IMG/VR virus record: IMGVR_UViG_3300033153_008207
Span: 1-47,340 of that record
Source: a virus
Strand: one strand, 5' to 3'
DNA: 47,340 bases
Shown: positions 212 to 40,725 of the stretch, piece after piece
How the letters are laid out: the number at the start of each line of letters is the position of its first letter
How positions within the stretch are numbered: position 1 is the stretch's first letter
Notes under the pieces: model-generated
The model's input: the letters and a program-made list of their open reading frames with translations, nothing else
Told to the model about the DNA's origin: nothing
Databases searched by the model: none
Position numbers and translations under genes: made by a program

Positions 212-658
212 TTATTTCTGTGCTTGTGCGATTACTGCTGCAACTTGCTCTGGTGTTAATCCTGCGAGCAAGTTAGATGCTTTCTTCATTCTCTCCTCTG
301 GTGTTTTTCCGCCTGTTCCTGGTCTGGTTGCAGGCTTACTTCTAAAATCATCTGCTCTTTTTTGGGCGTTCTCAATATCTTCTATAAGCGACACTTTTAT
401 TTTTTCGCCCTTCAATTTACCTGGTATATCTTTTGGTCTGACAACTGCACAAAAGTCAATCTTCCATTTTGCTAATGCTGCATGAAAAGTATTCAAGAGG
501 ATCTTGTGTTTTCTTGCCCATTCAAGCAATTTTTCTTCATCTTCAAGAATCGTTCCTGCTTCACACATCCATGCTGGTAAGTCAAACATTGCATCCGCTC
601 CATCGTGCGTCACTTCCATTGTTCCGCTTTCGATTGTGTCAAATAATGATTTTGCCAT
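212..658 (-). CDS. Early protein of 148 residues with the shared LTPEQ-type C-terminal tail
   Basis: I do not recognise a family. It begins with ATG behind a clear AAGGAG spaced 8 bases away; the same leader, AAGGAGTATTTATCATG, precedes the next gene upstream. Residues 40-110 look alpha/beta and mixed-charge, a Gly/Pro/Thr-rich linker follows (about 108-118), and the end is a helical segment containing LLAGLTPEQVAAVIAQ. A very similar end occurs on the proteins at 42336-42731, 44968-45303 and 35300-35578. It is the last gene of a three-gene leftward group whose first gene lies downstream of a sigma-54-like promoter. By its layout (globular part, linker, conserved tail) it could be a DNA-binding or helper protein of replication, but that is inference. 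Confidence 0.8.
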   Translation of the reverse strand: MAKSLFDTIESGTMEVTHDGADAMFDLPAWMCEAGTILEDEEKLLEWARKHKILLNTFHAALAKWKIDFCAVVRPKDIPGKLKGEKIKVSLIEDIENAQKRADDFRSKPATRPGTGGKTPEERMKKASNLLAGLTPEQVAAVIAQAQK

Positions 659-671: not shown

Positions 672-852
672 TCATTTTATTTGTTGTTGTTTTTGATAAT
701 CATCTTCTAATCCTTGCAAAAAAGCTATCCATTCTTGTTCATTTGGATGACCTTTAATAGAAATACAGACCATGTTTACAAAATCGTCAATATTCTGTTT
801 TTGCAACGATTAATTTTTCTATTGCCTTAATTACTTCATCTGTTGTGCCCAT
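672..852 (-). pseudogene. Small early gene broken by a single-base frameshift
   Basis: ATG at 852 follows AAGGAG and opens a 21-codon frame ending in TGA at 787-789. The +1 frame then stays open to TGA at 672-674, just before the ribosome site of the next gene. Joined at the A5 run near 800, the two give about 58 residues, beginning MGTTDEVIKAIEKL and continuing NIDDFVNMVCISIKGHPNEQ. The total length is one base more than a multiple of three, as expected for one extra A. It may be a sequencing or assembly error, a true pseudogene, or a programmed +1 shift; no classic slippery heptamer is in the right register. The function is unknown. Confidence 0.55.
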
Positions 853-949: not shown

Positions 950-1120
950 TTATAGTTTTATTGTTAGTTTTGAGTTATAAATTTCAAATTGTGTAAAAAT
1001 CTCTTTTAATCCTTTATACTCTTTTTTTGTAATTAGCCCATGTTCATACATTGTTTTATTTGCTTTAAATAAACGATAAATTTCTTTTAAACTCAATTTT
1101 TCTTCTGGTATTAATTCCAT
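950..1120 (-). CDS. Small early protein, 56 residues
   Basis: It begins MELIPEEKLSLKEIYRLF at an ATG with AAGGAG seven bases upstream, and ends in TAA. It is largely helical, with Lys/Glu-rich amphipathic stretches; no Cys pairs or membrane segment are seen. It is the first gene of the leftward small-gene group and starts about 48 bases after the start point predicted for the sigma-54-like promoter at 1179-1194. I do not recognise a family. Confidence 0.7.
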   Translation of the reverse strand: MELIPEEKLSLKEIYRLFKANKTMYEHGLITKKEYKGLKEIFTQFEIYNSKLTIKL

Positions 1121-1178: not shown

Positions 1179-1194
1179 TGCATACCCTGTGCCA
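1179..1194 (-). promoter_or_regulatory. Sigma-54-like promoter, leftward
   Basis: Read leftward, TGGCACAGGGTATGCA matches the -24/-12 consensus TGGCACG-N4-TTGCW, with the GG and GC pairs exactly in register. The deviations are A for G at position 7 and A for the first T of TTGC. The predicted start near 1168 gives a leader of about 48 bases to the ATG at 1120. Its pairing with a matching rightward promoter and with intervening activator-type sites raises confidence. Confidence 0.55.
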
Positions 1195-1281
1195 TAAGTT
1201 TAAAGTATTTGTTAACTGCTTGGAATGATTAGATAATTCTTTTATCACCTTTTCTTTCTTTGTTTTCCTTTGTTCAATTTG

Positions 1282-1316
1282 TGACAATTCCTGTCATATC
1301 ATGACAATTATTGTAA
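1282..1316. promoter_or_regulatory. TGACA/TGTCA array with 10-bp phasing
   Basis: TGACA (1282), TGTCA (1292), TGACA (1302) and TGTAA (about 1312) alternate every 10 bases. They form the perfect inverted repeat TGTCATATCATGACA (1292-1306) and a second one, ACAATTATTGT (1304-1314). Sites on one face of the helix suggest cooperative binding of a dimeric regulator. The array lies 90-120 bases upstream of the leftward sigma-54-like promoter. Confidence 0.55.
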
Positions 1317-1352
1317 CATACCTTTACTTCTTATCTTTCTCTCTCTTGTATC

Positions 1353-1443
1353 GTCAACTATTTGACACCATATCGTCAACACTTTGACAGTCGCTCTGAT
1401 TATCCAACAATATCAGATACTTATCTACCGTCAATACTTTGAC
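1353..1443. promoter_or_regulatory. Three GTCAA-N4-TTGAC palindromes (FleQ-box-like enhancer sites)
   Basis: Identical half-sites surround different centres: CTAT at 1353-1366, CACT at 1375-1388 and TACT at 1430-1443. Centres are 22 and 55 bases apart, close to whole helical turns. This arrangement of half-sites is that described for the FleQ/FlrA family of sigma-54 activators (GTCA-N6-TGAC with AA/TT inside). The sites stand 160-250 bases upstream of the leftward promoter and about 400 bases upstream of the rightward one, typical distances for a looping enhancer. No gene for such an activator was recognised in the window, so a host protein is the likely ligand. Confidence 0.65.
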
Positions 1444-1833
1444 AGCTATATCATAGGCTCATTACCTTTGTCTTGTTCTCTTGTTGATTCTTTTTAATCC
1501 TACCCAATTTTTATTCTCTACTTCTCTGTCAGAATCCGATGGGGAAACTTTAAATTCTACGCCTACTACCCTTCGGACCACATTTATTTTAAATTTTATT
1601 ATTATAAGTCGGCTTTGTACGATTTCAAAGTTTTTTAAAAGAAATCAGAGAAAAAGAACATTCAGCAAAGTGAAAGCAAAACAGTTCCTTTCAGAAATAT
1701 GGGCGTTCAAAGTTTGAACGAAATGAGGAAAGAAGAAAGGGAGTAGAAAGGAGGGAGAGAGGAAGGTTTTTTTCTATTAGATTTTTTTAATTCTCAAATA
1801 CACCTTTTACCGTACAAAATAATTCTTGCTTTC
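1444..1833. other. Non-coding leader between regulatory sites and rightward promoter
   Basis: I find no convincing gene. It holds one dispersed palindrome (1705-1719) and a purine-only tract with one interruption (1725-1766) ending in seven T. The rest is AT-rich with no clear structure. A 78-codon open frame inside it has no ribosome site. Confidence 0.6.
1705..1719 (+). repeat. Dispersed palindrome copy 2 (GTTCAA-AGT-TTGAAC)
   Basis: Preceded by GGGC and followed by GAAATGAGG, a weaker version of the usual GGACTNAGG arm. It lies 115 bases upstream of the rightward sigma-54-like promoter. Confidence 0.75.
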
Positions 1834-1849
1834 TGGCTCGGTTTTTGCT
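1834..1849 (+). promoter_or_regulatory. Sigma-54-like promoter for the rightward (structural) block
   Basis: TGGCTCGGTTTTTGCT fits TGGCACG-N4-TTGCW with one mismatch (T for A at position 5). GG and GC are in register and a pyrimidine precedes them. The predicted start is near 1860, about 50 bases before the first rightward reading frame. The same TTCTGGC-CGGTTTTTG core recurs at 37176-37191. Confidence 0.65.
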
Positions 1850-1910
1850 ATCCTTATTATATAGATTATGAAACGTGACCGTATGGTTTATTTATTTAGG
1901 AGTTCAGCTT

Positions 1911-2102
1911 GTGCAGAGGAAAAAATTAAAACTTGTATCAACCATCCCTATACCAGCACTTCCATTTAGATTACCGGAAGATGATGCTTTTCTTTATACT
2001 ACAAATTATTCTTCTTGGATTGAAGTGTTTCTCACAAAATCAGATAAAAAAGAAAATCTATCTTCTCTCTTAAATATAAAAAGAGGATTTTATTATGCTT
2101 AA
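1911..2102 (+). CDS. Small protein at the head of the rightward operon
   Basis: A GTG start is chosen because AGGAG lies eight bases upstream; an in-frame GTG at 1875 has no such site. The 63-residue product is basic at its N-terminus (VQRKKLKLV), then has aromatic and Thr/Ser-rich stretches. It overlaps the next gene by eight bases, suggesting coupled translation. I do not recognise a family. Confidence 0.55.
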   Translation: MQRKKLKLVSTIPIPALPFRLPEDDAFLYTTNYSSWIEVFLTKSDKKENLSSLLNIKRGFYYA

Positions 2103-2517
2103 ACAACTCAAATCTCATCATAAGGAAATTGCCAGATTAAAAGTCCTCGGCTATACTCCGGCTGAAATTGCAGAAAAAACAGGAAGTAAGCTTCACACAA
2201 TCTATGCTAATCTCCGAGATCCAATTTGCCAGAGTTTCATGAATGGATTAAGCGACAAGCTTGATAAGGAAGTTATTTCAGTAAGGAAACGGCTTATAGA
2301 TCTGAACCAATCCTCTCTTTCTGTCATTGCAGATATTCTTGACAAGGATTCTAAAGCTCCTTTCTCAGTTCAACTCGCAGCAGCCAGAGATAACCTTGAC
2401 CGTACTGGATATAAAGTTCCTGAAGAAATTAAAGTCGAGCATAGTTTTCTTACTGCAAAAGACATCGAAGAACTCAACGAGAACTCTAAAGATGTTAATA
2501 CTGATTATTTAGAATAA
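2095..2517 (+). CDS. Probable terminase small subunit
   Basis: A protein of 140 residues. Residues 10-40 form a helix-turn-helix of the kind seen in small terminases (EIARLKVLGYTPAEIAEKTG). A helical middle follows, with the stretch FSVQLAAARDNLDRTGYK that is common in small terminase and packaging proteins. Such subunits bind the packaging site and regulate the large terminase ATPase. AGAGGA precedes the ATG. It lies six kilobases from the large terminase, separated by fibre genes, which is unusual, so another DNA-binding role is possible. Confidence 0.65.
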   Translation: MLKQLKSHHKEIARLKVLGYTPAEIAEKTGSKLHTIYANLRDPICQSFMNGLSDKLDKEVISVRKRLIDLNQSSLSVIADILDKDSKAPFSVQLAAARDNLDRTGYKVPEEIKVEHSFLTAKDIEELNENSKDVNTDYLE

Positions 2518-8550: not shown

Positions 8551-10212
8551 ATGATAAACAATTTTGATAAATATGATCCCAAGCTACAAGAACTTTTGCT
8601 CCGCTGTCAACGCAGCACTAAAGTCTTTGCAAAGACATTCTTTCCTGATGAAGTAACAAGTGAATTCTCTATCCTTCATGATAAGATGTTTGCAGTTATG
8701 GACCATCCGACGAAACTTAAAAAAGCTCTTGCTGCTCCCCGTGGCTTGGGTAAAACGACGCTTGCTAAAATACGTTGTATAAAAGCAATCGTTTTCCGTG
8801 AGCGTCGTTTTATTACCTATGTAAGTAATTCTTCTGGAAGTGCGATTGAATCAACAGAGCATATTAAGAGGTTACTTATAGAAAATGAATATCTTAATCA
8901 AATATTCGGTAAGGTGAGTTTTTCTCAAAAAGGATTTAAAGAAGGATTTAGTAAAGAATCTTGGGTAGCTTATGGTGATGTTTACGTACTTCCTCGTGGA
9001 GCTAGACAGCAGGTAAGAGGTAAGAACTGGATGGGACATAGACCAGGTTTATTCATCATAGATGATTTGGAAAATACAGATAATATTCGTTCTGATGATC
9101 AAAGAGAATTTTTATCTAATTGGTTTTTTTCTGATTTGATGAAATCTGAATCACCTTATGGAGAACGAGATGGAAAAAATAAAGGGATGCCAGCAGAGTT
9201 CTTATATATCGATACTATTAAACATCGTGATGCTTTGCTTCAGCTTCTTATTGATTCCTCTGATTGGCTTACTGTAGCAGATTTTCCTAAACTTCTTCCT
9301 GACACTCCTGATGGAGTACTTAGTGTTTGTGATGCGGATTTTAATACTTATGACTCTAATTACATGATGACTAAGGAAATTAAACAAGAATATGCAGATC
9401 ATGTAGAAAAAGGAAAATCAGATCTTTTCTATATGGAGCGTATGAATATTCCAATAGATATAAAAAATGCTGTATTTAAACCTGAATCATTCAAACACTA
9501 CGAAGAAGCTGGAGATCATTTAATCGTCCACAATCACCCTATCGTTGTTCAAAGGTTGAACAAACTGGGGGTTGAAATTAAACTGACAGAAAAGATTCTT
9601 GTTAGAGAACTTATTACCTTGATTATAGTTGATCCTGCAAGGACTATTAATCCTCTTAGTGCTGAGTCTGCAGTAATGGTAGTCTCTATACACCGCAAAT
9701 CTCGGAAGATATTTGTCCGTGACTCTTGGGGAAAGAAAGTAAAGCCAAGTGTGCTTTATGACCAAATGTTTAATCAATGCTTGCTTTACAATGCTCGGTA
9801 CCTGGCAGTTGAAGTAACCGGCTTACATGAGTTCATCTCACAACCAATACGAAATGAAATTAGAATACGAGGAATTTCTTCTGAGTATGTAGAACTCAAT
9901 GCTCGAGGTGACAAGGACTTGAGAATTTCAAATGCATTATCTAACTACTATGCTCAAGGGCAGATTTATCATAATGCAAGTAATTGCACTGCATTAGAAA
10001 ATCAACTCAAATGGCATCCTAAATCTAAACGCAAGGATTTAATTGACGCTTTGGCTTATATAACTGCTTTAATCAACATGTTTTTTCTTTTCTTTGAAGC
10101 AGAAGAAGATGACTTTGATGAAGATGAATATGCAGATATTGATGCAGAAGATGATTTGGAAGATGATTATGATACAGAAGAACTTTTACTTGGTGACGGG
10201 AGTATAATATGA
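8551..10212 (+). CDS. terL: Terminase large subunit (packaging ATPase and nuclease)
   Basis: A protein of 553 residues that drives DNA into the prohead and cuts it. Walker A is APRGLGKTT (62-70) and Walker B is FIIDDLE (168-174), with the catalytic acidic residue after the DD. The RNase H-like nuclease half shows IIVDPA (D361), AVEVTG (E421) and DLIDALAY (D499), the usual acidic trio. A strongly acidic tail (about 516-545) extends the C-terminus. The linker between the halves (about 332-340) is encoded by one copy of the dispersed GTTCAA palindrome. The gene overlaps the portal gene by four bases. Confidence 0.93.
   Translation: MINNFDKYDPKLQELLLRCQRSTKVFAKTFFPDEVTSEFSILHDKMFAVMDHPTKLKKALAAPRGLGKTTLAKIRCIKAIVFRERRFITYVSNSSGSAIESTEHIKRLLIENEYLNQIFGKVSFSQKGFKEGFSKESWVAYGDVYVLPRGARQQVRGKNWMGHRPGLFIIDDLENTDNIRSDDQREFLSNWFFSDLMKSESPYGERDGKNKGMPAEFLYIDTIKHRDALLQLLIDSSDWLTVADFPKLLPDTPDGVLSVCDADFNTYDSNYMMTKEIKQEYADHVEKGKSDLFYMERMNIPIDIKNAVFKPESFKHYEEAGDHLIVHNHPIVVQRLNKLGVEIKLTEKILVRELITLIIVDPARTINPLSAESAVMVVSIHRKSRKIFVRDSWGKKVKPSVLYDQMFNQCLLYNARYLAVEVTGLHEFISQPIRNEIRIRGISSEYVELNARGDKDLRISNALSNYYAQGQIYHNASNCTALENQLKWHPKSKRKDLIDALAYITALINMFFLFFEAEEDDFDEDEYADIDAEDDLEDDYDTEELLLGDGSII
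9547..9561 (+). repeat. Dispersed palindrome copy 3, inside the large terminase gene
   Basis: GTTCAA-AGG-TTGAAC followed by AAACTGGGG. It encodes VQRLNKL in the segment joining the ATPase and nuclease halves, a place that can tolerate extra residues. Confidence 0.65.
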
Positions 10213-26700: not shown

Positions 26701-27582
26701 AAAGGAAGCGTAGCTGCCAGAAACACACTTGCTTGGGGAATGAAACAACTTGATTATGTTGCTCGAGAAATCACAGCGAGAGCAAAGGAATCAGAGTTAA
26801 AAAGAGCTGTTAAAGAAGGCAGGCTCTCTGAGAAAGAAATGATAGAGCAAGTTGATTCTACTGTAGTTCGAACACAAAGTAGTGGTGCAAGAGGAGAAGT
26901 TGCCCCAATACAGAGAAGTGAGCTGGGAAAAATAATGACTCTTTGGCAGACATTTACTATTGGTCATGTTAATTGGTTAGCTAAAGAAGTCCTTGGAATT
27001 AAGAATCCAGAATTGACTCCTGGGAAGACAGCTAATAGAGTATTTCGTTATGTTTCTACAATGGCAATTCTCGGTTATGTCTTTGAAGATTTAATAGGTA
27101 TTCAAGCTCCTGGACCTGCTCCAATTCAGTCAGTTAAAAGACAACTTCAAGGAGGGGAAACTGATCCAATTAAAATAGCTCTTGAAACAGGAAAAGAATT
27201 ATCAGAACTACTCCCATTTGGAGGAAGTATTAAATTTGGTAGTGGTGTCTATGGCCCTGTCTTTGATTTCATTAACAAAGACCTTGTCGGTTTGATTAGT
27301 AATACAGATATTTATAATCAAGATGTTTTAGCTAAAGCAAGAAAAGGCGATGTTAAATCTATTATTAAAATACTCGAAGTAACAGGAAAGTTACGTGGTA
27401 TTCCTGGAACTGCTCAAGTAGCTAAAACAGCAAGAGGATTGTTGAGAGATGAAAGTTTAATGCGTGCTATGATTGGCAGGATTTATGATGAGAATGCAAA
27501 GAAAGCTGGGAAGACAAGAAAAAGAACTAAGAGAAAAAGAACTAAGAGAAAGAAAAGAACTTCTAAAAGGAGAACAAGATGA
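23794..27582 (+). CDS. Large ejection protein with lytic domain and basic C-terminus
   Basis: A protein of 1262 residues. Residues 54-155 look like a peptidoglycan-cleaving domain of phage internal proteins: RNFNPGNLRF, FARFENATSGFDAL, HTIDSFINKYAPPIENDTQG. Short repeats DPFAGISFG (5-13), DSFEGVSFG (21-29) and DPFAGVSFG (171-179) flank it. Residues 188-197 are encoded by a dispersed palindrome. A long helical part follows to about 1100, and then the last 30 residues are almost all Lys and Arg. It would drill the wall and guide DNA into the cell. The gene overlaps the peptidase-like gene by four bases. Confidence 0.75.
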   Translation: MKGNDPFAGISFGTKSNEKQDSFEGVSFGLEQEEKSQEELSFGITIPNDTLASRNFNPGNLRFAGQRGASEGEDGFARFENATSGFDALKRQVSLDAGRGHTIDSFINKYAPPIENDTQGYIDFISKETGFDSKSKVVDVDQDKLARIMARFESGTTFEEKEIAKEAETNDPFAGVSFGGQAIKTKPVRSMFERTEEGSDTEDKDFEFVDPFIKTPLALGYGMASWPFAQAARFGAMYGQKAQQKLGFVPEMRDEDITQMGEEVANWFSTLGGKLDPESDIGKAAVGYAGKAVEPLVMAAHWINSGIDKEKYPHLSQLADTTTEGMMFGFLHKFGSGAINLGKKKLELRKEGIKNRVRKEKNLAKKSKELLKKMEESAKSGELQDIIKERQVKNQQLIDTAEGFSAIDVGKQEGVKPIERVPTKSELSKVQDQVTSAVRRPGEQLDSLLKRAAEPKLVEDVKVYYAPKVRKISQLLFDPLRNESGKITIPLTRKQLLSETTPEFRDNVRKFGKLAEQAGIPLRDFLKNNDFSNKEIRQIVKVSEAVKLDRPMASAKEMPRVGSKDFKITELEPGDTQVNVGKKANSNIKIGLKDLEKFAQIPKLKSGGLIQGLTVPETFFTKHKSLKPLLHMKRARDKALAKDTKILTDRFKDIEKTYSNKKLRKEAGALQISKGKFGEKAMDKMGVKVNPEAKYQGLNTELQPILQDGLKRMNEVREMNGRKPIKEMENFVAWFAEENFWRDVKELVGGDFNRQGPSLIHDSLETIKHRHTQSALDMGNFNHVTREGLRDGVKLELDHLVIAQRYMSELLPVIHYAELNSFIKEAMTKDLILPNGKKINFSDKYTGVNQGLAQELISWSNSLVGKSNSPLPHLVEKQLGRLRRSLTNATLVGNLRTTAIQLTALQTSFVERPGRTIQAGFDFMADLGRRKPKFDREKYNSLPEKGDGLTAMDTSFSDATSAIGGTKLQKGSVAARNTLAWGMKQLDYVAREITARAKESELKRAVKEGRLSEKEMIEQVDSTVVRTQSSGARGEVAPIQRSELGKIMTLWQTFTIGHVNWLAKEVLGIKNPELTPGKTANRVFRYVSTMAILGYVFEDLIGIQAPGPAPIQSVKRQLQGGETDPIKIALETGKELSELLPFGGSIKFGSGVYGPVFDFINKDLVGLISNTDIYNQDVLAKARKGDVKSIIKILEVTGKLRGIPGTAQVAKTARGLLRDESLMRAMIGRIYDENAKKAGKTRKRTKRKRTKRKKRTSKRRTR
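24359..24373 (+). repeat. Dispersed palindrome copy 5, inside the ejection-protein gene
   Basis: GTTCAA-TGT-TTGAAC with GGACTGAGG after it. Bases 24353-24378 are identical to 45337-45362 (26 of 26). In frame it encodes RSMFERTEEG in an apparent linker. Confidence 0.85.
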
Positions 27583-27905
27583 AAATAGATTTAATGCAGT
27601 TGGAATTTATTGACTTGAAGTTACGAAACCTTGCAACAGAAGTAGAAGATAGATTTGGAGAGAAAGTAGTCACAAGTTTGTATCGGATAGATGATTCCGG
27701 AGTCCATGGAACACTTCCATTACGAGGAATTGATTTACGATGCAGCACTTCCCGTCATGGAAGAGCAGTGGAAGATTGGGTTAATAGTCGCTGGTTATAT
27801 GATAAGGATAGATTAGAGAAAAACTGCTGCAAGTTTCATTCGAACAGAAGTAATAATGGCTATCATATTCATTTACAAGTACATGAAAATACAAAGGAAA
27901 TATGA
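27579..27905 (+). CDS. M15-type peptidase-like endolysin candidate
   Basis: A protein of 108 residues. The residues SGVHG (H43), RGIDLR (D52) and GYHIHLQ (H96, H98) match the zinc and catalytic pattern of the M15 / D-Ala-D-Ala carboxypeptidase group, with YRI before it taking the place of the usual R. The core is short for M15 and there is no signal peptide or wall-binding domain, so export through a holin would be needed. Together with the next gene it closes the late operon, where lysis genes usually lie. Confidence 0.6.
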   Translation: MKIDLMQLEFIDLKLRNLATEVEDRFGEKVVTSLYRIDDSGVHGTLPLRGIDLRCSTSRHGRAVEDWVNSRWLYDKDRLEKNCCKFHSNRSNNGYHIHLQVHENTKEI

Positions 27906-28219
27906 TGGGAAAGATGAGATACAATTTAAAGAAGACAATTCATTACCACTCTTCTCGTTATAATAAAGATATTACTGTTCCTTATGGAAGACTGTCAGAC
28001 GGAGCTACGGGAGCATTTGATATTAAGAACTCTGACTCTTGGTGGGTACATGATGAGTTATGTAGGAATGGATGTTTTGAAGATGGAACTCCTTGTACGA
28101 CTTGGCAAGCTTCCACTATTTGCTGTGATATTCTGGCTTCTGAAGGAAGATGGTTCAGGAGATATTCTTGGTGGTTACCTACGTACTTGTTTGGTGGAGG
28201 AGAGTGCAGAAAGAATTAA
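27902..28219 (+). CDS. DUF1353-like protein
   Basis: A protein of 105 residues, overlapping the preceding gene by four bases. VPYGRLSDGATG and WWVHDELCRNGCFEDG fit the DUF1353 pattern (P-x-G-x-x-x-D-x-x-S/T, then HD-x-L). The function of this family is unknown; it is often found beside endolysins and holins. The region has six Cys, unusual for this phage. It is the last gene of the rightward block. Confidence 0.65.
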   Translation: MMGKMRYNLKKTIHYHSSRYNKDITVPYGRLSDGATGAFDIKNSDSWWVHDELCRNGCFEDGTPCTTWQASTICCDILASEGRWFRRYSWWLPTYLFGGGECRKN

Positions 28220-28281
28220 ACACTCTGAAAGGAGGTGATCTTTATCTATCTTGGTTTGCCTTAGGACTGAGGTGAAAAAGT

Positions 28282-28319
28282 AAAAGGAGAGTAGAGGGTG
28301 GTGACTTTACTCTCCTTTT
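28282..28319. terminator. Bidirectional terminator between convergent blocks
   Basis: AAAAGGAGAGTA (28282-28293) and TACTCTCCTTTT (28308-28319) form a perfect 12-bp stem with a 14-base loop. The A-run on one side and T-run on the other let it terminate both strands. It stands between the convergent ends of the rightward gene stop at 28219 and the leftward stop at 28332. Confidence 0.92.
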
Positions 28320-28331
28320 ATTATTAAGGAT

Positions 28332-28937
28332 TCATATCTCTATAATTCCTCGTTTAATAAGTTCAAAGAAACATTGCTTGGTTGCTCGAGTATCTGCCAT
28401 TGCATCATGTTCATTTTCAAATTTTTCTTCAAAGAGAAGATGGTATAGCTCAGAGAGTTTCGGTGGCTTGATGTGGCCTTTGACATTTTTCAAATCACAC
28501 CAGGATTTAATTCTCTTATCTTGCATGGTGCAGAATACAGTTGATTCAAGATAATAACGAGACCGACTATAATCAGAAAGTTTTTCCATATTGCGTTGAA
28601 ACATTTGATCAAGGAATTTCTCGTCAAACTTTGCATTGTGACAGACTCGCATTGGTTCAGTTTCAAGAAGCTGAGCATATTCCTCGAGGACTTCAGTTTC
28701 TTCAACACCTTTTTCATCAGCAATTTCATTTGTAATATTATGAATAGCGATGGTATGAGGGTTGATGTATCGTCCGTTTGCTTTGATGATTTTGTTTACT
28801 TCGAATAATTCATTTCCTTTGGAATCACAAAGTAAAGCTCCGAGTTGAACAGCAAAAGCTTGTGTTGGGTCGTTAATAGTTTTCTTACCTGAAATAAAGC
28901 CTGATGTTTCTGTATCGTAGAATAGGTAGTTAATCAT
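28332..28937 (-). CDS. DnaQ-like 3'-5' exonuclease (DEDDh)
   Basis: A protein of 201 residues. Exo I is YDTETSG (D8, E10), Exo II is CHNAKFDEKFL and Exo III is EHDAMADTRAT with H and D, so all four acidic residues and the His are present. It trims 3' ends in proofreading or recombination. The polymerase in this phage has its own exonuclease domain, so this one is a second nuclease. It is the last gene of the leftward block. Confidence 0.85.
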   Translation of the reverse strand: MINYLFYDTETSGFISGKKTINDPTQAFAVQLGALLCDSKGNELFEVNKIIKANGRYINPHTIAIHNITNEIADEKGVEETEVLEEYAQLLETEPMRVCHNAKFDEKFLDQMFQRNMEKLSDYSRSRYYLESTVFCTMQDKRIKSWCDLKNVKGHIKPPKLSELYHLLFEEKFENEHDAMADTRATKQCFFELIKRGIIEI

Positions 28938-28950
28938 AGTGTTTTCTCCT

Positions 28951-29331
28951 TTAATTAACTAAGTCAATATTAGGTAATATTGCTTTTGGTTTAAAAATAA
29001 CTCGGTAATGATAAACATTTGCAGGAGAACTCTTCATCTGCTCTACAAATGGAAATACATTATCAGCTCGCCCAAGATAATGTTTTTTAAATTGATTTGG
29101 ACCAGTCTTCACAGTCACGATAAACTTATCAACATAGAATTCTACTGAACAACGCCCCTCAATAGTTAAAATATATTCGTCTGTTATTCCATTATAGAAG
29201 ACAACACGTCGATTAACCTCAAACATGTCGGCAGCTTTTGAAAGATTATGCGATGCTATATCAGCATCTGTTGCACAACCAATTAAAGTAATAAGAGTAA
29301 ATAACATAAACAAGACAACTAATTTCTTCAT
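28951..29331 (-). CDS. Phage-encoded lipoprotein
   Basis: A protein of 126 residues. The N-terminus is KK, then a hydrophobic stretch, and lipobox LIGC at 16-19, so Cys19 should be lipidated. The mature part (NLSKAADMFEVNRRVVFYN, TIEGRCSVEFYV, VKTGPNQFKKHYLGRADN) matches the beta-sandwich lipoproteins found in many phages. It lies in the early block beside replication genes, which suggests superinfection exclusion or an envelope role; both are inference. Confidence 0.75.
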   Translation of the reverse strand: MKKLVVLFMLFTLITLIGCATDADIASHNLSKAADMFEVNRRVVFYNGITDEYILTIEGRCSVEFYVDKFIVTVKTGPNQFKKHYLGRADNVFPFVEQMKSSPANVYHYRVIFKPKAILPNIDLVN

Positions 29332-29344
29332 TTTTTTCTCCTTT

Positions 29345-30577
29345 TTAAAGCATTAATCTATAAAGTGTTTTTTCCAGATATTCCTGTGTGACTTTCTTTT
29401 TCCTCCTTGTTTTAGGTGTAAACATAACTGTTGTAGCAGAGTCTTCTCGTTTGACAAGACCACTTGCTTCTGCAATTTTCATATATTCTAACAGCTCGTG
29501 AGGCAATGCATCTATTGCAAAATTAGAAATGAGTTCTTCATAAGTAAATCCTTTTGATGATTCAATAAATGATACAAGCTTAGCATATACTTGTGAATGA
29601 TTTCCTAAACCAAAACCCTGAAAAGCATTTGGCATTTCCTGCTCAGTTGCTTCGAGAATTGCTAAAGCCTTTTTAAAATGTCTGGCATGGATTTCCATAT
29701 CATCATTTTCACTTGCAGATATAATCATACAAAGCTTATTAAGATGCAAGGCTCGACGAGCATTGTAACCGAGAAATTTATCATTAGATACTCCTTCGGC
29801 AGAAGAGTAGTTTTCATACCAATCAATGTAAGAAGTTAAAAAATTTCGCTTGAGTTTGAATGGCCCGCCAAGCAAAGCAATTCGTTGAAGCTCTTGAGCA
29901 AGTTTTGCTTGTAAGGCAAGGTCGTCTTTACTAAGAAACTGCAATGCAATCTTTTTTCTTGCCCCATATCCTACTACAAAAATAATCCTTGAAAGTAATC
30001 CTCCACCTACTGCATCTTGAGAAAGTTTGCTTTGCAGAAGGCTTGGAGTTATTGCTCCGATAATTGTTAGCCAGCAGTTAGAAATATCCTCTACTCCACG
30101 TTTCATAGTAGAATATTTCCATGAATCAGCACAGTCGAATAAGTCAGTAAGAGAAGCTATAAGAGTAGGGTCACGTTCAGACAGAAAGACTTGAAATTCT
30201 TCTGACCAGACGGAAAGAGATTTGTGTTTTTTTGTCAGTTTGTTAAAGTCTTGATACTCTGTTTCTGATTCCATGATTTCTTTATACAATGCCTGAGTAG
30301 AGCCAAGTGAGTCACTGCCCATAGGAATCTCAAGAGAATAGACCATGGACTTGGCTATTTTCATAGCCGTTCCTTTTCTTCCTCCAGGTGGGCCAACAAG
30401 AGCTATGTAAAAGTTGGGATAAATGTATCCTCGTAATCCCCAATTGCAAAAGCACTTACGACGGAGAGCAGAGGAGATAGCTGTAATCCCAGACCAGAGA
30501 TTGTAAAGAGTAGGACACTCAGTGTTCTGGGTGAAGAGCATATAATGTTCTAACCAATCAGATAGTTGTCGAGACAT
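29345..30577 (-). CDS. DUF3987-type primase/helicase-like ATPase
   Basis: A protein of 410 residues. Walker A is GPPGGRKGT (62-70); an acidic SEEFQ at 125-129 may serve as Walker B. Sequence around TIIGAITPSLLQSKL and GGGLLSRIIFV matches the DUF3987 family, used by phages and mobile elements as replicative helicase or primase-helicase. It ends seven bases before the polymerase gene, so a replication role is well supported by context. Confidence 0.75.
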   Translation of the reverse strand: MSRQLSDWLEHYMLFTQNTECPTLYNLWSGITAISSALRRKCFCNWGLRGYIYPNFYIALVGPPGGRKGTAMKIAKSMVYSLEIPMGSDSLGSTQALYKEIMESETEYQDFNKLTKKHKSLSVWSEEFQVFLSERDPTLIASLTDLFDCADSWKYSTMKRGVEDISNCWLTIIGAITPSLLQSKLSQDAVGGGLLSRIIFVVGYGARKKIALQFLSKDDLALQAKLAQELQRIALLGGPFKLKRNFLTSYIDWYENYSSAEGVSNDKFLGYNARRALHLNKLCMIISASENDDMEIHARHFKKALAILEATEQEMPNAFQGFGLGNHSQVYAKLVSFIESSKGFTYEELISNFAIDALPHELLEYMKIAEASGLVKREDSATTVMFTPKTRRKKKVTQEYLEKTLYRLML

Positions 30578-30583
30578 AGCGAA

Positions 30584-33121
30584 TTAAATTCCTATTTTAT
30601 CAAATGCTTTGTTAATATTATCTTGAGTAAAACTTTCAATCTCTGCTGTCTTACCTGCCCAGACCAAACCTACTTTTGCATCTAAACCTATTTTAAAACT
30701 TCGACCCAAGTGAGTAAACGTATATGACATATGGTCGTCAATGATTTGAGAAATCTTTAAGAAATTAGGTTTCTGGATGAAAGGAGTTTGAGTGATTACT
30801 GAATCATGTACAGTGGTAAGCATGTCAATATTATAACGTAACGAATTAAGTCTATAATCATTACTCATTTTAATCATACCTTTATTAAGAAGTTCTGCTA
30901 CTGTTGATTGGGGAATGTAAGAATAAGCATTTCTAAATAAAGCTGGGCCAATGAGACCAAGGAAACGTTTAGGTCTGCCGAACATATTATAAAGAATTTT
31001 ATGTTCAGATACTTCTGCATCTATTCTTCTTTGCCACTTTGCAAGAGAAGGAAATCTATCTCCATAAGCATTAAGCATTCGTTTGCATTTTGCTACAGAC
31101 ATGAATATATTATCTTTTGCAAGGTTGTCTGAAAAGGTAAGAGATCCCATTGAATAGTTGCTTGCATGAACAACACGTTTGCCAAGATCACGCATCGTAT
31201 GCTTGCCTGGAATTTTTTCTTCTGATTGAACTTCTTCCATTGAGCAGTCGAAAATTTTACTTGCATTGAAGGAGTGGACATCTACTCCAGATTCAAATGC
31301 CTTAATCATTGCTTCGTCTTGAGCAAGATAAGCTACGACATGGGCTTCTGCTCTTGCAAGATCGTATTCAGTAAGAAAATATCCTGGATCGGGACGAAGA
31401 TATTTCTTAAAGATATAAGGCTGATTTTGTAGATTCGCTCCAGTACCAAAGTAAGTCGCTTCAGAGGAGAGTCTGCCAGAACTAGTTCCTGGAATGTTAT
31501 AAGAGCAGCGGAGCTTGTTATCAGAGTCGAGATTAACACGGAAGTAAGTTGAAAGAAGCTTTCCTTTAGTACGCATTAGCATGATGATTCGAGCAGCTTG
31601 AGAACCTTTTTTTCCTGCCTTGGCAATACGAGAAAGAGCTACTGCATCACAAGATGGATTACCAGTTTTACGATTTATATATGGTTTAATCATACAAGTG
31701 CCGTAGAAATAAGCAATCATTTGAGGAGAAGAGTTTGTGTTCAGTTCCTTGCCGATTACTTGATTGAGTTCTTCTTGATGTTTAATGAGTTCAAGTTCTA
31801 GTTGAGTTCGATACTCTGCAATGCCTTCTGTGTCTGCAAGAATACCATTCCAAAACATTTCAATGAGCGGTTTATGAAGTTCCATTTGATAAGTCATGGC
31901 ATCTTCTGCTTCAAAGTCTTTGAGTTCTTTCTTAAGCTCGTCCATGATTTGGAAAAGATAGCCAGAATCCTTAGCGTTGTATTTCCAATAGCTTCGCCAA
32001 TCTTTCTGGAGTTCGAAATGAACTTTCTTTCCTTCATCTTTGTAGTAAGGTTCGTAGGTATAGACAGAGGTAAGATAGCCTAAGCCTTTCGGCAAGTCGG
32101 TGTAGCAAAGATGTTGAGCGAGCAAGGTATCGAAGTAAAAGTTATCTGTAAAGATTTGATACTTACGAAGCAAGTAGGTGATATCAAACATACCGTTTTG
32201 CATTACTTTTCTTATCTCAGGATTGCCAAGAATACGAGCCAGGCCTTGAATGATTTCGAGTTCTTGTTGAGGTGACCAGAAATTTCCTCTGTTATCCATA
32301 AGTGGAATGCACATGGAAGTTACTCGGTCGGAATCTCGTATAGCTAAAGAAAAGCAAGTCATGAAATCAGGAGGAGCTTCGATGTCAAAGGCACATATGG
32401 ATTTTGTTTCGATTAGCTTGTAGAATTTCATAACTTGGTCAAAACGAGGATCTATTTTTATATCTACTTTGGAAGTTAAAATAGACGTATCTTTTTCTAC
32501 ATTTAGCATACGAGTTAAGTCAGAGACAAGAGTGTAAAATGCCTTAGGGTCTTTGTTCTTTCCTATGCCAGTGTAATCGGGATGATAGGAACATAGGATT
32601 ATTTTTCCCTTAAGAGGTTTAGCGAGATGAGGGAATTGTTCAGCAGGATAGAATGAACCTCTGTACTTGTGAATTGAATTTATTCTCGGGTCGTCAAGCA
32701 GAAGTCTCATGGGAAGTTCACCAAGGAGGACTATTATCTTTCCTTTAAAGAAAGAAAGTTCTTTAATAAGATTTGCTTGTAAGATTCCCCACTCAGGACA
32801 CTTCTTTCCTTTTTCTGTAATGATAGAAAATTCCTTCATCCAATCTGCTTTAACTGCATGGGTTATATAGCACTCGTATTTAGGTATTCTCACTACTGCT
32901 AAGGCCCGATTGAATTGACCTGAACGAGGGCCAGAGAACGGAGCTTTCTTTTTACATTCAATATGAGTAGGGAGATTAGATACAAATGCAAATCGAGCAG
33001 AGTTAATGTTATCTGTAGGCGGACAAGAGACATTTAGTTTAGGTGAATAGGCAAATTGAGCAGAATCTACAGACGGAATTTTAGGTATTGGTTTGTCTGG
33101 GATCTTTGGAATTATGTTCAT
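30584..33121 (-). CDS. Family A DNA polymerase with N-terminal UDG-like domain
   Basis: A protein of 845 residues. Residues about 40-205 resemble family 4 uracil-DNA glycosylases (FSGPRSGQF at 62-70, CYITHAVKADW, IIVLLGELPMRLLL, CSYHPDY near 177-183). This fusion is known in SPO1-like phages. The exonuclease domain has FDIEA (D246, E248), NGMFD (309-313) and YNAKD (381-385). Polymerase motif A is YDLARAEAH (D587), motif B RDLGKRVVHASNYSMG (R644, K648, Y656), motif C TVHDSV (H772, D773); the usual Glu of HDE is Ser here. It replicates the phage DNA. Confidence 0.93.
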   Translation of the reverse strand: MNIIPKIPDKPIPKIPSVDSAQFAYSPKLNVSCPPTDNINSARFAFVSNLPTHIECKKKAPFSGPRSGQFNRALAVVRIPKYECYITHAVKADWMKEFSIITEKGKKCPEWGILQANLIKELSFFKGKIIVLLGELPMRLLLDDPRINSIHKYRGSFYPAEQFPHLAKPLKGKIILCSYHPDYTGIGKNKDPKAFYTLVSDLTRMLNVEKDTSILTSKVDIKIDPRFDQVMKFYKLIETKSICAFDIEAPPDFMTCFSLAIRDSDRVTSMCIPLMDNRGNFWSPQQELEIIQGLARILGNPEIRKVMQNGMFDITYLLRKYQIFTDNFYFDTLLAQHLCYTDLPKGLGYLTSVYTYEPYYKDEGKKVHFELQKDWRSYWKYNAKDSGYLFQIMDELKKELKDFEAEDAMTYQMELHKPLIEMFWNGILADTEGIAEYRTQLELELIKHQEELNQVIGKELNTNSSPQMIAYFYGTCMIKPYINRKTGNPSCDAVALSRIAKAGKKGSQAARIIMLMRTKGKLLSTYFRVNLDSDNKLRCSYNIPGTSSGRLSSEATYFGTGANLQNQPYIFKKYLRPDPGYFLTEYDLARAEAHVVAYLAQDEAMIKAFESGVDVHSFNASKIFDCSMEEVQSEEKIPGKHTMRDLGKRVVHASNYSMGSLTFSDNLAKDNIFMSVAKCKRMLNAYGDRFPSLAKWQRRIDAEVSEHKILYNMFGRPKRFLGLIGPALFRNAYSYIPQSTVAELLNKGMIKMSNDYRLNSLRYNIDMLTTVHDSVITQTPFIQKPNFLKISQIIDDHMSYTFTHLGRSFKIGLDAKVGLVWAGKTAEIESFTQDNINKAFDKIGI

Positions 33122-33138
33122 AGAAGTCCTTTCATAAT

Positions 33139-33483
33139 TTATTTCTTATCTGGTGGGGTTGGTATAATCATTAACTGAGCATGAGATATACATTCATTCA
33201 GATAACAATTTTCACTGTATGGACTAAATTTAAATGTTCCAGTATAGTCTCTGTATGCTTCAACAACTCGACCTTTATAAGTAATCCAACACCAACCCTC
33301 ATTTGGTTCAAGGTCAAATTCTTCAAAAAGAATCCATTTAGCATCAGGCAACTCACACCATTTGGGAATACCATCTCCTGGTGTTATATTTCTATCTGAT
33401 AACCAACAAATATATAATAAATATCCTCTTGGGCAAAAATTAGGACATTGTTGACAGTTTTTTATTTCAAATAATTTTGTCAT
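33139..33483 (-). CDS. Cys-rich small protein
   Basis: A protein of 114 residues. The Cys-rich first third (CQQCPNFCPRG and CELPD) could bind zinc. The middle WCWITYKGRVVEAYRD looks like the core of DUF551-like phage proteins, though the match is partial. It lies between the polymerase and a second probable zinc-binding protein. Confidence 0.5.
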   Translation of the reverse strand: MTKLFEIKNCQQCPNFCPRGYLLYICWLSDRNITPGDGIPKWCELPDAKWILFEEFDLEPNEGWCWITYKGRVVEAYRDYTGTFKFSPYSENCYLNECISHAQLMIIPTPPDKK

Positions 33484-33495
33484 ATCTCACTCCTT

Positions 33496-33816
33496 TTATT
33501 TTTCCTCTGCATAAATACTTGGGGCTTTGATAATTTCCTTACACTCAGGACAGTAGTATTTTCTTACCCTGAACGCAGTAGCAAGAGAAATACCTACATA
33601 AAATTCACACTTCGGTTGCTCGTTGTATCCGTTTGGATGAGTTATTCGGATAAAGGATACTTCTATGGGGACAAGGTTGGAGTGAAGGCAAATAGGTGAT
33701 CTTTTACTGAAATGATGAGTAACATTTTTCATTGCTTTTCCTGCTAAAGTAGTTTCAGAAGTAGTTTTTTCTGCTTTCTTCTTACGTTTTATTGGTGTTG
33801 TTTTTTTAGCTGGCAT
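33496..33816 (-). CDS. Small protein with zinc-ribbon-like pairs
   Basis: A protein of 106 residues, basic at the N-terminus (KKTTPIKRKKKAEK) with CPEC near the C-terminus and single Cys at about 43 and 70, so a metal site is possible. It may bind DNA. No family is recognised. Confidence 0.5.
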   Translation of the reverse strand: MPAKKTTPIKRKKKAEKTTSETTLAGKAMKNVTHHFSKRSPICLHSNLVPIEVSFIRITHPNGYNEQPKCEFYVGISLATAFRVRKYYCPECKEIIKAPSIYAEEK

Positions 33817-33818
33817 AA

Positions 33819-35300
33819 TTATATCTCCATAAAATGTTTTTTGTATTTATAATAAAACTGCGTAGCATCTTTTTCACTTAAGTCACAGCCGATAGGAATC
33901 ATGTCTGCTTTTTTAGCAGAGATAAGACAGTTGCCTGAACCAGCAAAAGAAGAATGAAAAACTGTTTTAGGTCGAGCCAAAGCTTCAAAGAAGATATCGT
34001 AAAGTTTGATTGGCTTTTCCCATTGGTGAGTTTTAGTTGACCCTGGACTGGCAGGACAGGAGACTATGTTTTTAAAAGACGGGATGTTAAAAGTAGCATT
34101 TCCTTTGCGGAGGAGAATGAAACATTCAAATGTACTTACCATAGTTGTACTTGGTCGATTGACCGAACCGCCATTCTTAGCCCAGATTCCAAATGGTTGA
34201 GTTTTGAACTTGGCACGAGAAGCAATTTCATTTGCATCTTCAACCCATTCTTTTCCAAGCCAACATAACATCCAGGAATTAGGCATTAGTTTGGAGTAGT
34301 AAATTGGAAACATAGTTTCATAGAAGTGGATTAGTTCATCTGCTGTCCAATCTTTTTTGTCTTGTACTTGTTCGTTTTTCTGCTGATAATTTTCATCATA
34401 GTTAATTGCGTAAAGAGGATCGAGTTCTATGAAGCCTATTGATTCGTTAGGGAATTTAGGAACGAAGGTAAAGAGGTCTTCGACTACATATGAAACTTCA
34501 TCAGAGAGATCTTTTTCTTCTTCAGCTGTAGATGGCTCTTCCACAGTCCGTTCAACATTTGAACCGACTGAAGAAGTCGGATTCTTAGCTGAATCATGTT
34601 CAATGAGTTCTTCTATGTTATCATTATGTTTTGCACAGATGACCGGAGAGGCTTTCTTCTTAAGAGGTTGTTTTTTAATTGCATTTCCTGACATAAGTGA
34701 TGCCATTTTTAATTTTTCATCGTCAGACATCGAGTCCATTTTTTTAAATGCTGCTGCTTGTTCAGCCATCTTTTTAGATGCTTCTCTTGCCTGGCCCTTG
34801 GAAGTGCAGTTGACCAGGTCAGGAAAAACATTTATCATTGCAGCGAGAGTAAGGTCAGTAGATAACCCTCCTACAGAGCAATCGAATTCTTTAGCTGAGT
34901 CTTTAAAAGACCAGGAAAGAAGAGGAGAGGATTCAGATGCTTTCTTGATCCAGTAGTTGTGGATTTTATACCTGAGCATTAGTTCTTCTGACCAAGTGAA
35001 ATCTTTCCTTGCATCATTTTCCATGTGTTCAATAAGGAGTTTATCGTCAGCAGAGAGATTGGGCATGATACGACAGAGAACTGGAAGCTTGAGTTTTTTG
35101 CATACTAAAGTCCGTCTTTCTCCAGCGATTAATTCATTATCAGATGTTATGAGAATAGGATTAAGTTGTCCTTGAGTAGAGATAGCTTTGGTAAGTTTTT
35201 CTAGCTTACCTTTGTCAATACGGCTACGATTTGTGATGATTATATCTTTTGGTTTTCGTTCTTCAATAGAAAAGAGATTTGTAACTTTCTTTTTTGTCAT
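33819..35300 (-). CDS. ParB-like domain fused to DNA methyltransferase
   Basis: A protein of 493 residues. The N-terminal part has the ParB/Srx signature (LNPILI, LIAGERRT at 57-64) followed by a helical region like the ParB HTH (to about 210). After a linker, a beta-class DNA methyltransferase has IELDPLYAIN (motif IV, DPLY at 294-297 instead of DPPY) and FAGSGN (motif I, 452-457). ParB-methylase fusions are known in phages. The linker contains SNVERTVEEP, encoded by a dispersed palindrome. It might modify phage DNA or act through the ParB part on a palindromic site. Confidence 0.8.
   Translation of the reverse strand: MTKKKVTNLFSIEERKPKDIIITNRSRIDKGKLEKLTKAISTQGQLNPILITSDNELIAGERRTLVCKKLKLPVLCRIMPNLSADDKLLIEHMENDARKDFTWSEELMLRYKIHNYWIKKASESSPLLSWSFKDSAKEFDCSVGGLSTDLTLAAMINVFPDLVNCTSKGQAREASKKMAEQAAAFKKMDSMSDDEKLKMASLMSGNAIKKQPLKKKASPVICAKHNDNIEELIEHDSAKNPTSSVGSNVERTVEEPSTAEEEKDLSDEVSYVVEDLFTFVPKFPNESIGFIELDPLYAINYDENYQQKNEQVQDKKDWTADELIHFYETMFPIYYSKLMPNSWMLCWLGKEWVEDANEIASRAKFKTQPFGIWAKNGGSVNRPSTTMVSTFECFILLRKGNATFNIPSFKNIVSCPASPGSTKTHQWEKPIKLYDIFFEALARPKTVFHSSFAGSGNCLISAKKADMIPIGCDLSEKDATQFYYKYKKHFMEI
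34550..34564 (-). repeat. Dispersed palindrome copy 6, inside the ParB-methylase gene
   Basis: This copy is the most complete: the palindrome extends to CAGTC-N-GTTCAA-N3-TTGAAC-N-GACTG. It encodes SNVERTVEEP in the linker between the two domains. A nearby hairpin-capable CCGACT/AGTCGG follows on the + strand. Confidence 0.85.
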
Positions 35301-35578
35301 TAGGAGAGTTCCTTTTTATTTAATTGTTTTTGAATTAATGCAAATTGTGCAGGAGAAAGCTTGTTCAAGGCTCTTAGGGCTTTTTGTTCAGCAGAGAGAC
35401 CACGAGCCTTAGCTTTTCTCTTTTTACCCTTGGCTTTAGTTTTTCTTTTCTTAGGTTTCTTCGCATTTGCCAGTCCTTCTACTCGCATGGATTGGATAGA
35501 TAGAATAAGTTCCAATTGAGTAGGGATTGGTTTTGATAAGAAATCTGTTGTTTTTATTCTGTTCATAAGGATAGTCAT
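35300..35578 (-). CDS. Basic small protein with LSPAQ-type tail
   Basis: ATG at 35578 is preferred; an upstream TTG frame overlaps the previous gene and lacks a ribosome site. The product (92 residues) has a very basic middle (KKPKKRKTKAKGKKRKAK) and a C-terminal helix ALRALNKLSPAQFALIQKQL, the same tail type as three other early proteins. It may be a DNA-binding accessory factor; that is inference. Confidence 0.6.
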   Translation of the reverse strand: MTILMNRIKTTDFLSKPIPTQLELILSIQSMRVEGLANAKKPKKRKTKAKGKKRKAKARGLSAEQKALRALNKLSPAQFALIQKQLNKKELS

Positions 35579-35582
35579 GAGA

Positions 35583-35768
35583 TTATTCTTGCTCCATTGG
35601 AATACCAAGAGAAGTAAAAGTACTCATAACATTTTGAAAAGTCATTGTAATAATTTCTCGTTGTTGCCATTGGTCTGTACCAATATTTCCATTTATTGGA
35701 TTTGCGAGTATACCTGCTACAATAGCTGCTGTCATAGTTAAAACATCTTTTTTAGTTATTGCTTCCAT
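35583..35768 (-). CDS. Small unknown protein, 61 residues
   Basis: ATG with AAAGGA eight bases upstream. A hydrophobic stretch (LTMTAAIVAGILA) near the N-terminus is too short and mixed to be a confident membrane segment. Acidic C-terminus. Tightly packed between early genes. No family. Confidence 0.5.
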   Translation of the reverse strand: MEAITKKDVLTMTAAIVAGILANPINGNIGTDQWQQREIITMTFQNVMSTFTSLGIPMEQE

Positions 35769-35773
35769 GTCAT

Positions 35774-36013
35774 CTATCCTTTCTCTTTTTTCTTTGTAAC
35801 TCTCGGTAGTGTTAAGTTCCTTTGGCCAGAAATATAAAGAATTATATCATTAATCTTACCTCTTAAAATAAGTATTTGGACTGATTCGAATACATTTCTA
35901 ATTAACTTGGATAACTGTCCATGATAAAAGTTTCCTTTGACAAAAAGATACAGGGATTTTTCAATCTTCACTGTAGCTTTTTTTACTTCAATGTTTTGAT
36001 ACGATTCATTCAT
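35774..36013 (-). CDS. Small unknown protein, 79 residues
   Basis: ATG with AAGGAAGG upstream. Mostly beta and basic, ending VTKKKEKG. Segments such as IEKSLYLFVKGNFYHGQLSK suggest a small DNA-binding fold, but nothing is diagnostic. Confidence 0.5.
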   Translation of the reverse strand: MNESYQNIEVKKATVKIEKSLYLFVKGNFYHGQLSKLIRNVFESVQILILRGKINDIILYISGQRNLTLPRVTKKKEKG

Positions 36014-36034
36014 TTTTGCCTTCCTTGATTAAGT

Positions 36035-36775
36035 TTATATTTTTTCACTTATTTCATCTTCATTAATAGTCAGTGTCCCAAGTTCCTTGGCTTTGCGAGT
36101 TTTAGTTTTCCCTGGTTCGTCACCAACAATCAAAATATCTACATAACGAGAGACTTGATTAGAAAAAGACCAACGATAAGCAGAGAGGTAATCTATCATT
36201 TCAGTTCGAGATACAGAAAGCTTGCCAGTAATACAATACATTATCTTAGGTACTGGAGGAACAGGAAGAAAGGAAAAGTTAGTTAGTTCTTTTTTAGCTT
36301 TCTCATAGATTAAATACCCTTCAGAGAAGTTAGTTTGTGCTGTCTTAGATACTCCTTTAAGTTCTTGATTTTCGAATACATAGTACCATAGCTTGAGAAC
36401 AGATTTATAAGCCAGCTTATCATAACCTAAGGCAGAGATAAAATGAATTGGAGATTTGGATAAATTAGCCAGATTCTCTCTATAAATCTTGTATCTTTTT
36501 TCTCCCCAGATTTTTTTAAGTAATAGAACAAAGTCAAATACCTCTGGTTCAAGTAAAGCATATGGAGTTTGAGCAAGAATATGATAGGCTAATGGGTCTT
36601 CAAATAAATCTCCTATCATAAATTCTCCGATAGATTTCAGTTCCATACCTTTGTCAGAATAGAAATAAGAAAGTTTCTTAATCATCTGAGCAATGCAGCG
36701 GGAAGAAGTGCAAATGAGATGAACACCTTCCCAAGAGAGAGGAGAATTACAAGTCGGACAAATAGTAGGTATCAT
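36035..36775 (-). CDS. NAD+ DNA ligase, C-terminal part (Zn finger, HhH, BRCT)
   Basis: A protein of 246 residues. CPTC (6-9) and C22/C27 form the ligase zinc finger, complete with the SSRCIAQ motif. A helical region (about 30-165) stands for the helix-hairpin-helix domain, and 176-246 is a BRCT domain (ITGKLSVSR, GDEPGKTKTRKAKELG). It lacks adenylation residues and must act with the gene at 37395-38399. Phage T5 also has a bipartite NAD+ ligase. It overlaps the HNH-like gene by four bases. Confidence 0.85.
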   Translation of the reverse strand: MIPTICPTCNSPLSWEGVHLICTSSRCIAQMIKKLSYFYSDKGMELKSIGEFMIGDLFEDPLAYHILAQTPYALLEPEVFDFVLLLKKIWGEKRYKIYRENLANLSKSPIHFISALGYDKLAYKSVLKLWYYVFENQELKGVSKTAQTNFSEGYLIYEKAKKELTNFSFLPVPPVPKIMYCITGKLSVSRTEMIDYLSAYRWSFSNQVSRYVDILIVGDEPGKTKTRKAKELGTLTINEDEISEKI

Positions 36776-37113: not shown

Positions 37114-37177
37114 TTTTATTCTCCCATCTTATTTGTCAAGGCTTTTTTTTTATTTTATTTTTATTTTCTTGTCCTTC

Positions 37178-37193
37178 TGGCACGGTTTTTGAA
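37178..37193 (+). promoter_or_regulatory. Degenerate sigma-54-like sequence
   Basis: TGGCACGGTTTTTGAA has a perfect -24 half but TTGA instead of TTGC at -12, missing the key C. It shares the TTCTGGC-CGGTTTTTG frame with the rightward promoter at 1834, so it may be a decayed copy. It is followed 30 bases later by the palindrome at 37223. Confidence 0.35.
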
Positions 37194-37222
37194 TCGGTTG
37201 TTTAAGACCATTAAAACTGGAA

Positions 37223-40721: not shown

Positions 40722-40725
40722 AACT

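Follow-up and report, generated by a model that had tools for sequence, protein, structure and literature searches.

Does a phage place an operon of its own under the sigma-54 factor and a flagellar activator of its host? The question is raised by a 754-bp gap in a single IMG/VR virus record of 47,340 bases, the whole of which was analysed here and is called the window. About 118 bp at its end duplicate its first bases when the sequence is read, so the window appears to be a complete genome with a circular map. The genes between about 1900 and 28,200 run rightward and include terS, terL (8551–10212) and further structural genes, and the remaining genes, among them polymerase, helicase and ligase, run leftward; the DNA polymerase A (30584–33121) bears a uracil-DNA-glycosylase-like domain at its N-terminus. 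The window yielded no tRNAs and no Rfam matches, and a nucleotide search of cultured phages gave no match of note. The reported promoter elements and boxes lie inside the gap that separates the two gene blocks, and together with the adjoining genes they are as follows.

212–658, minus strand: main gene of the leftward operon, 148 amino acids, with homologues in the phages L004, L005 and L048 (about 33–48% identity).
950–1120, minus strand: first gene of the leftward operon, 56 amino acids, with a weak SHOCT-like match and a good ribosome site.
1179–1194, minus strand: predicted leftward -24/-12 promoter TGGCACAGGGTATGCA, one mismatch to the consensus TGGCACRNNNNTTGCW.
1282–1296 and 1302–1316, no strand assigned: two palindromes of the TGACAA-N3-TTGTCA type, matching at 11 of 12 positions each, 20 bp apart.
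1353–1366, no strand assigned: predicted enhancer box 1, CGTCAACTATTTGACA with flanking bases, with a counterpart in L048.
1375–1388, no strand assigned: predicted enhancer box 2, CGTCAACACTTTGACA, with a counterpart in L048.
1430–1443, no strand assigned: predicted enhancer box 3, CGTCAATACTTTGACA, with a counterpart in L048.
1826–1854, plus strand: sigma-70-type promoter sequence TTGCTT-N17-TATCCT with extended -10 TGC, overlapping the next element.
1834–1849, plus strand: rightward -24/-12-like element TGGCTCGGTTTTTGCT, before terS and the structural block.
1908–2102, plus strand: small open reading frame of 64 amino acids, placed after the rightward promoter and before terS and lacking in the relatives.
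2095–2517, plus strand: terS, the gene for the small terminase subunit (PHROG terminase small subunit, E=2e-4), with which the conserved genes of the structural block begin.

An earlier note on this DNA had described two outward-facing -24/-12 sequences, and both are present with the letters and coordinates that it gave. Counting sites with at most one mismatch and with GG and GC kept, at least one -24/-12 match arose in 4 of 3000 shuffles of the 754-bp gap and two matches in none of the 3000, and the whole-genome scan that the note had called for returned two more strong matches, at 37178 (+) and 37361 (+). The leftward site lies about 60 bp upstream of the start of the gene at 950–1120. Four phages carry the 212–658 gene or a homologue (the window, L004, L005 and L048), and in each of them a -24/-12 site is directed into this small-gene operon, the counterparts being TGGCACGAGAGATGCA in L004, TGGTACGGGTATTGCA in L005 and TGGCACGTGCATTGCA, a perfect consensus, in L048. 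This conservation of a predicted promoter supports the proposal that a small leftward operon is under sigma-54 control. Enhancers of sigma-54 promoters usually lie about 80–200 bp upstream; the leftward promoter has the boxes 158, 180 and 235 bp upstream and a palindrome at 112 bp. As to the operon's products, the 148-residue protein has no family match and no convincing relative among cultured phages, and its AlphaFold model (pLDDT 51) was not used; tblastn among the loci found no counterpart of the 56-residue gene. A further small leftward frame at 690–852 (-), beginning MGTTDEVIKAIEKLIVAKTEY, seems to require a frame change, through frameshift, decay or sequence error.

We then examined the three GTCAA-N4-TTGAC palindromes reported between the promoters, and found them exact at 1353, 1375 and 1430. 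The exact motif occurs three times in 47,340 bases, all within 91 bp and with start-to-start spacings of 22 and 55 bp, compared to a mean of 0.06 per dinucleotide-shuffled genome, among which three was never reached; the stricter form yGTCA-N6-TGACr finds the same three sites only, against 0.11 expected. L048 carries a corresponding array (GTCAGTATTTTGAC, GTCAAACTTTTGAC and GTCAATCTTTTGAC at 1204, 1225 and 1280), whose spacing of 21 and 55 bp is nearly that of the window, the kind of conservation that the earlier note had suggested looking for, and GTCA-N6-TGAC is kept by all six boxes of the two phages. The nearest box stands 108 bp from the leftward promoter in L048 and 158 bp in the window. 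The promoter and box sequences reported here are not products of chance.

Each TTGACA half of such a palindrome can act as a -35, and therefore the three palindromes could be operators of a phage repressor or other regulator acting on sigma-70 promoters, such as TTGACA-N16-AACAAT at 1384 or, as read from the L048 sequence, TTGACA-N17-TATCAT after the last box. However, promoter-like matches in the region number 13 versus 12.4 in shuffles, no conserved gene reads from these starts over 400 bp, and the boxes recur beside sigma-54 promoters in unrelated phages and in bacteria; we consider operators of this kind improbable.

The recurrence in bacteria was assessed in 297 genomes from the phylum of a Syntrophobacteraceae genome, the best host candidate, with the composite defined as one exact box followed 88–118 bp later by TGGCAC-N5-TTGC. 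It was present in 13 of the 297 genomes, compared to none for a reversed-pattern control. Ten of the 13 composites stand directly upstream of fliL-fliM; one further is beside flgE, one is before a pseB-like gene and one has no assignment. This placement before fliL-fliM and beside other flagellar genes indicates that the composite is a flagellar sigma-54 control element, and the identity of the activator that reads it we infer. The window's own distance of 158 bp exceeds the 88–118 bp of the search pattern, which counts against the flagellar reading. Bacterial DNA lying within 300 bp of paired boxes had 4 perfect sigma-54 sites in 76 kb, versus 1 in 829 kb elsewhere, and with a control drawn solely from the intergenic parts of the same short loci the excess was modest (7 versus 2.9 expected). 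Genomes of the hosts' phylum mostly have one exact box and a half-site, and paired boxes across that phylum were found in the seed genome only, suggesting that close-set arrays of exact boxes are rare in the hosts. In two sphingomonad loci, L213 and L239, a box triplet and a sigma-54 promoter stand directly before a sigma-54-activator gene that is beside a fliE-like gene.

The phage genome encodes no enhancer-binding protein, and hence the phage would have to use that of its host. For DVU2894 of Desulfovibrio vulgaris, a FleQ/FlrA-like activator, the predicted motif is yGTCA-N6-TGACr (PMC4641369). The window boxes fit this form, so the part of the earlier note that called them FleQ-type boxes stands as a likeness of motif, and the published assignment of that motif is itself a prediction. 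The DVU2894/FleQ/FlrA flagellar regulon shares with the window its yGTCA-N6-TGACr palindromes and -24/-12 promoters, the composite of the two being the one seen above before bacterial fliL-fliM, and differs in that the window's targets are viral, its boxes lie further away (158–235 bp) and its regulator is not phage-encoded. The Pseudomonas aeruginosa FleQ box GTCaNTAAAtTGAC is likewise a 14-bp palindrome with GTCAA and TTGAC ends (quoted in PMC6120874), differing in the middle four bases and in host lineage, and this consensus is disputed genome-wide (PMC6120874). The FleQ domain (PF06490) was found in one of 10 genomes with the array, several of which are incomplete drafts, and a match to this N-terminal domain model is not needed for the activator class.

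The boxes might alternatively belong to another host sigma-54 activator, for example an NtrC/FlgR-class response regulator, with the same promoter logic answering a different signal. The sole published assignment tying the palindrome to a FleQ/FlrA-like protein in Desulfobacterota is the prediction cited above (PMC4641369), the box-associated activators of L213 and L239 combine a sigma-54 domain with a Fis-type helix-turn-helix and have no FleQ-domain match, and even the FleQ sites of Pseudomonas are ill-defined (PMC6120874). We nevertheless think a different activator unlikely, given that 10 of the 13 bacterial composites precede fliL-fliM and that the window boxes agree with GTCaNTAAAtTGAC at its conserved ends.

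The closest cultured phage is Desulfofustis phage LS06-2018-MD01 (38% identity for TerL, 31% for DNA polymerase), and this kinship, together with the Geobacter-like promoter described below and the motif, points to Desulfobacterota. The phage's G+C content of 36% is below that of many Desulfobacterota, which counts against this host. When 395 genomes of the Syntrophobacteraceae phylum were searched for CRISPR spacers against window positions 27500–47340, none was found in a repeat array, the five weak matches (81–91% identity) all lying outside such arrays, and a TerL search of genome contigs found no relative and no prophage.

We also looked for the composite in other phages. In IMG/VR it occurs at 21 loci, compared to none for a scrambled palindrome, a control that contains TAG/CTA, which phages tend to avoid. 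A strict subset, with boxes of the form yGTCA-N6-TGACr and promoters ending in TTGCW, represents about six independent phage groups in which the boxes lie about 103–126 bp upstream of the promoter; in one of these phages the composite precedes a GP88-family gene. In viral DNA, the 80 kb lying within 300 bp of paired boxes contained 11 perfect sigma-54 sites, versus 6 in 961 kb elsewhere; a control confined to intergenic positions in these short loci left a weak excess (9 loci versus 7.5 expected), a point against the association. L054, a separate and unrelated contig of phage origin that encodes a terminase-like protein, mirrors the window: its three boxes lie between a terS-like gene and the sigma-54 promoter of an AAA ATPase gene. 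Among other phage contigs, L155 (1151–1270) has five copies of TGGCATGATTCTTGC at 26-bp intervals next to a GTCAA-N4-TTGAC array, resembling tandem sigma-54 promoters, and in L083 (11340–11762) and L086 (4152–4415) GTCAA-N4-TTGAC boxes are interspersed with several perfect sigma-54 sites.

The three repeats of lambda cosB lie beside the lambda terS gene, and the present array has terS as its neighbour in the window and L048 and, in mirrored form, in L054, which is unrelated; it could thus be a cosB-like packaging site, or a replication site, for TerS or another phage protein, with the sigma-54 sites incidental. The window's TerS is 76% identical to those of L004 and L048 and 45–49% identical to that of L005, yet the array is absent from L004 despite this 76% identity, and in bacteria the boxes precede fliL-fliM with no terminase near. 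A packaging or replication role appears very improbable.

That the structural genes share this control, as the earlier note had proposed, is a weaker claim. The Geobacter sulfurreducens RpoN consensus is TTGGCACGGTTTTTGCT (PMC2725144), and the window spacer CTGGCTCGGTTTTTGCT matches 15 of its 17 positions. Such matches are expected 0.003 times per shuffled genome, and not one of 20,000 trials with random spacers produced an equally good -24 region. Sigma-54 control of the structural genes stays in play because this match is far beyond chance. Against this part of the proposal, three relatives have sigma-70-type promoters before terS (TTGACA-N17-TATCGT in L004, TTGACA-N17-TACCGT in L048 and TTGACA-N18-TATAAT in L005), and L004, L005 and L048 have no rightward -24/-12 element at the homologous place. 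The window's TTGCTT-N17-TATCCT, in which the extended -10 is kept, aligns gap-free with L048 by eye, and MAFFT agrees for L004 and L048; judged by comparison with the relatives, it is a sigma-70 promoter. The rightward site is 390–467 bp from the boxes, a range over which their action is possible, albeit far. The rightward promoter may accordingly be an ordinary sigma-70 extended -10 promoter whose -24/-12 likeness is accidental, leaving the leftward operon alone under sigma-54. We put this at a little short of an even chance: the homologous promoters of the three relatives, the distance of the boxes and the window's retained TGCTATCCT, in register with those promoters, favour it, whereas the match to the Geobacter consensus, the random-spacer result and a poor -35 in the window (TTGCTT) do not. 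The rightward site has the look of a gain confined to this lineage, or of a dual promoter; a recent acquisition of sigma-54 control, or a dual promoter, is about as likely as coincidence.

The relatives also bear on the boxes themselves. The earlier note had named the loss of both -24/-12 and box sequences from close relatives as grounds for rejection; L048 retains the leftward -24/-12 site and the boxes, and L004 and L005 lack these boxes though the leftward promoter is present. Other perfect palindromes lie upstream of the leftward promoter in these two, TCTGGTATACCAGA at 94 bp in L004 and TGACAATCTTTGTCA at 132 bp in L005. In the window, the pair at 1282–1316, of a kind related to the L005 palindrome, also forms TGTCATGATATGACA (1292–1306), which is the palindrome at 112 bp from the leftward promoter mentioned above. 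A comparable pair, likewise separated by 20 bp, occurs in L005 at 3459 (10 of 12 positions) and 3479 (12 of 12), in nearly the same place; the window pair is a candidate second enhancer, for which this is suggestive only. The missing boxes in L004 and L005 suggest that the family as a whole does not keep the activator, a point against the flagellar reading, and the retention of the leftward promoter with other palindromes suggests that the promoter stays and the type of enhancer changes, as if the enhancer had been exchanged.

Another palindrome, GTTCA-N5-TGAAC, is dispersed over the window in seven copies (159, 1705, 9547, 15710, 24359, 34550 and 45343; 0.06 expected) that are mostly followed by GGACT or AnACT, giving roughly CGTTCAA-N3-TTGAACGGACT. 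Two copies flank the leftward operon and the array, and copies also occur in L004, L005, L038 and L048. One of the seven, CGTTCAAAGTTTGAACG, precedes the rightward site by 130 bp and was considered as the enhancer of that site, but was rejected as a dispersed copy. Elsewhere in the window, at 36035–38399, the NAD-dependent DNA ligase is split into an N-terminal part (37395–38399) and a C-terminal part (36035–36775), with an HNH endonuclease gene (36772–37113) and a 281-bp gap between them; the ligase of L005 is one open frame of 592 residues. The gap contains the two further sigma-54-like sites of the genome scan, 37178–37193 (+, TGGCACGGTTTTTGAA) and 37361–37376 (+, TGGCACGGTTGTTGCA, a perfect consensus), which point antisense to the N-terminal part; the second of them is preceded, at 138 bp, by the palindrome TGTGACCCACGTCACA. 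They are possibly promoters of a non-coding RNA.

Taken together, we conclude that 1179–1443 probably combines a sigma-54 promoter with an array of enhancers of the host-flagellar type, through which the leftward operon would be expressed with the flagellar programme, the structural block possibly following in part; in this reading the host, protein binding, transcription, timing and purpose are what we infer. Host RpoN-RNA polymerase would occupy 1179–1194 during infection, and a host FleQ/FlrA-type enhancer-binding protein, placed on the three boxes 158–235 bp upstream, would melt the leftward promoter through DNA looping. The leftward operon (950–1120, then 212–658) would then be made when the host flagellar programme is on. 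The promoter of terS and the structural genes would have gained its -24/-12 element over an older sigma-70 extended -10, and the structural block might be partly co-controlled.

Searches of the open literature turned up no description of a phage with genes of its own under RpoN or FleQ control. The closest precedent is the CtrA control of pili- and flagellotropic Alphaproteobacteria phages, termed 'lytic deferment' (Mascolo et al. 2022, PMC9437464). Those phages and, by prediction, the window have in common that a large intergenic region carries a dense array of sites for a host motility and cell-cycle regulator (here all three predicted sites fall within 91 bp of a 47-kb genome), and the CtrA system and the present composite have each arisen independently in several phage lineages. 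They differ in that CtrA binding and regulation have been shown, in Alphaproteobacteria, whereas the window has a predicted sigma-54 enhancer. A phage element and sigma-54 control also meet in the Gifsy-1 prophage and the RpoN/RtcR-dependent RNA-repair operon of Salmonella (PMC9879122); there, prophage genes affect a host sigma-54 operon, whereas here the phage genes themselves would be read by sigma-54.

Transcription by sigma-54 requires an ATP-burning activator that answers a host signal, and a phage operon under it would therefore stay silent until the host programme permits. As a tentative and rather doubtful generalization, many unrelated phages of flagellated, RpoN-using bacteria may put chosen operons under host flagellar sigma-54 enhancers, with part of the infection timed by the motile state, and within one family the promoter may stay as the enhancer is swapped (GTCAA boxes, TGACAA-N3-TTGTCA or TCTGGTATACCAGA) to suit host activators. 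If the proposed control is true, the idea of lytic deferment would extend to another sigma factor, another regulator and other bacterial phyla, and a searchable signature (a box, 88–118 bp, then a -24/-12 site) would be at hand for finding more such phages and would also help in guessing which phages enter through flagella.
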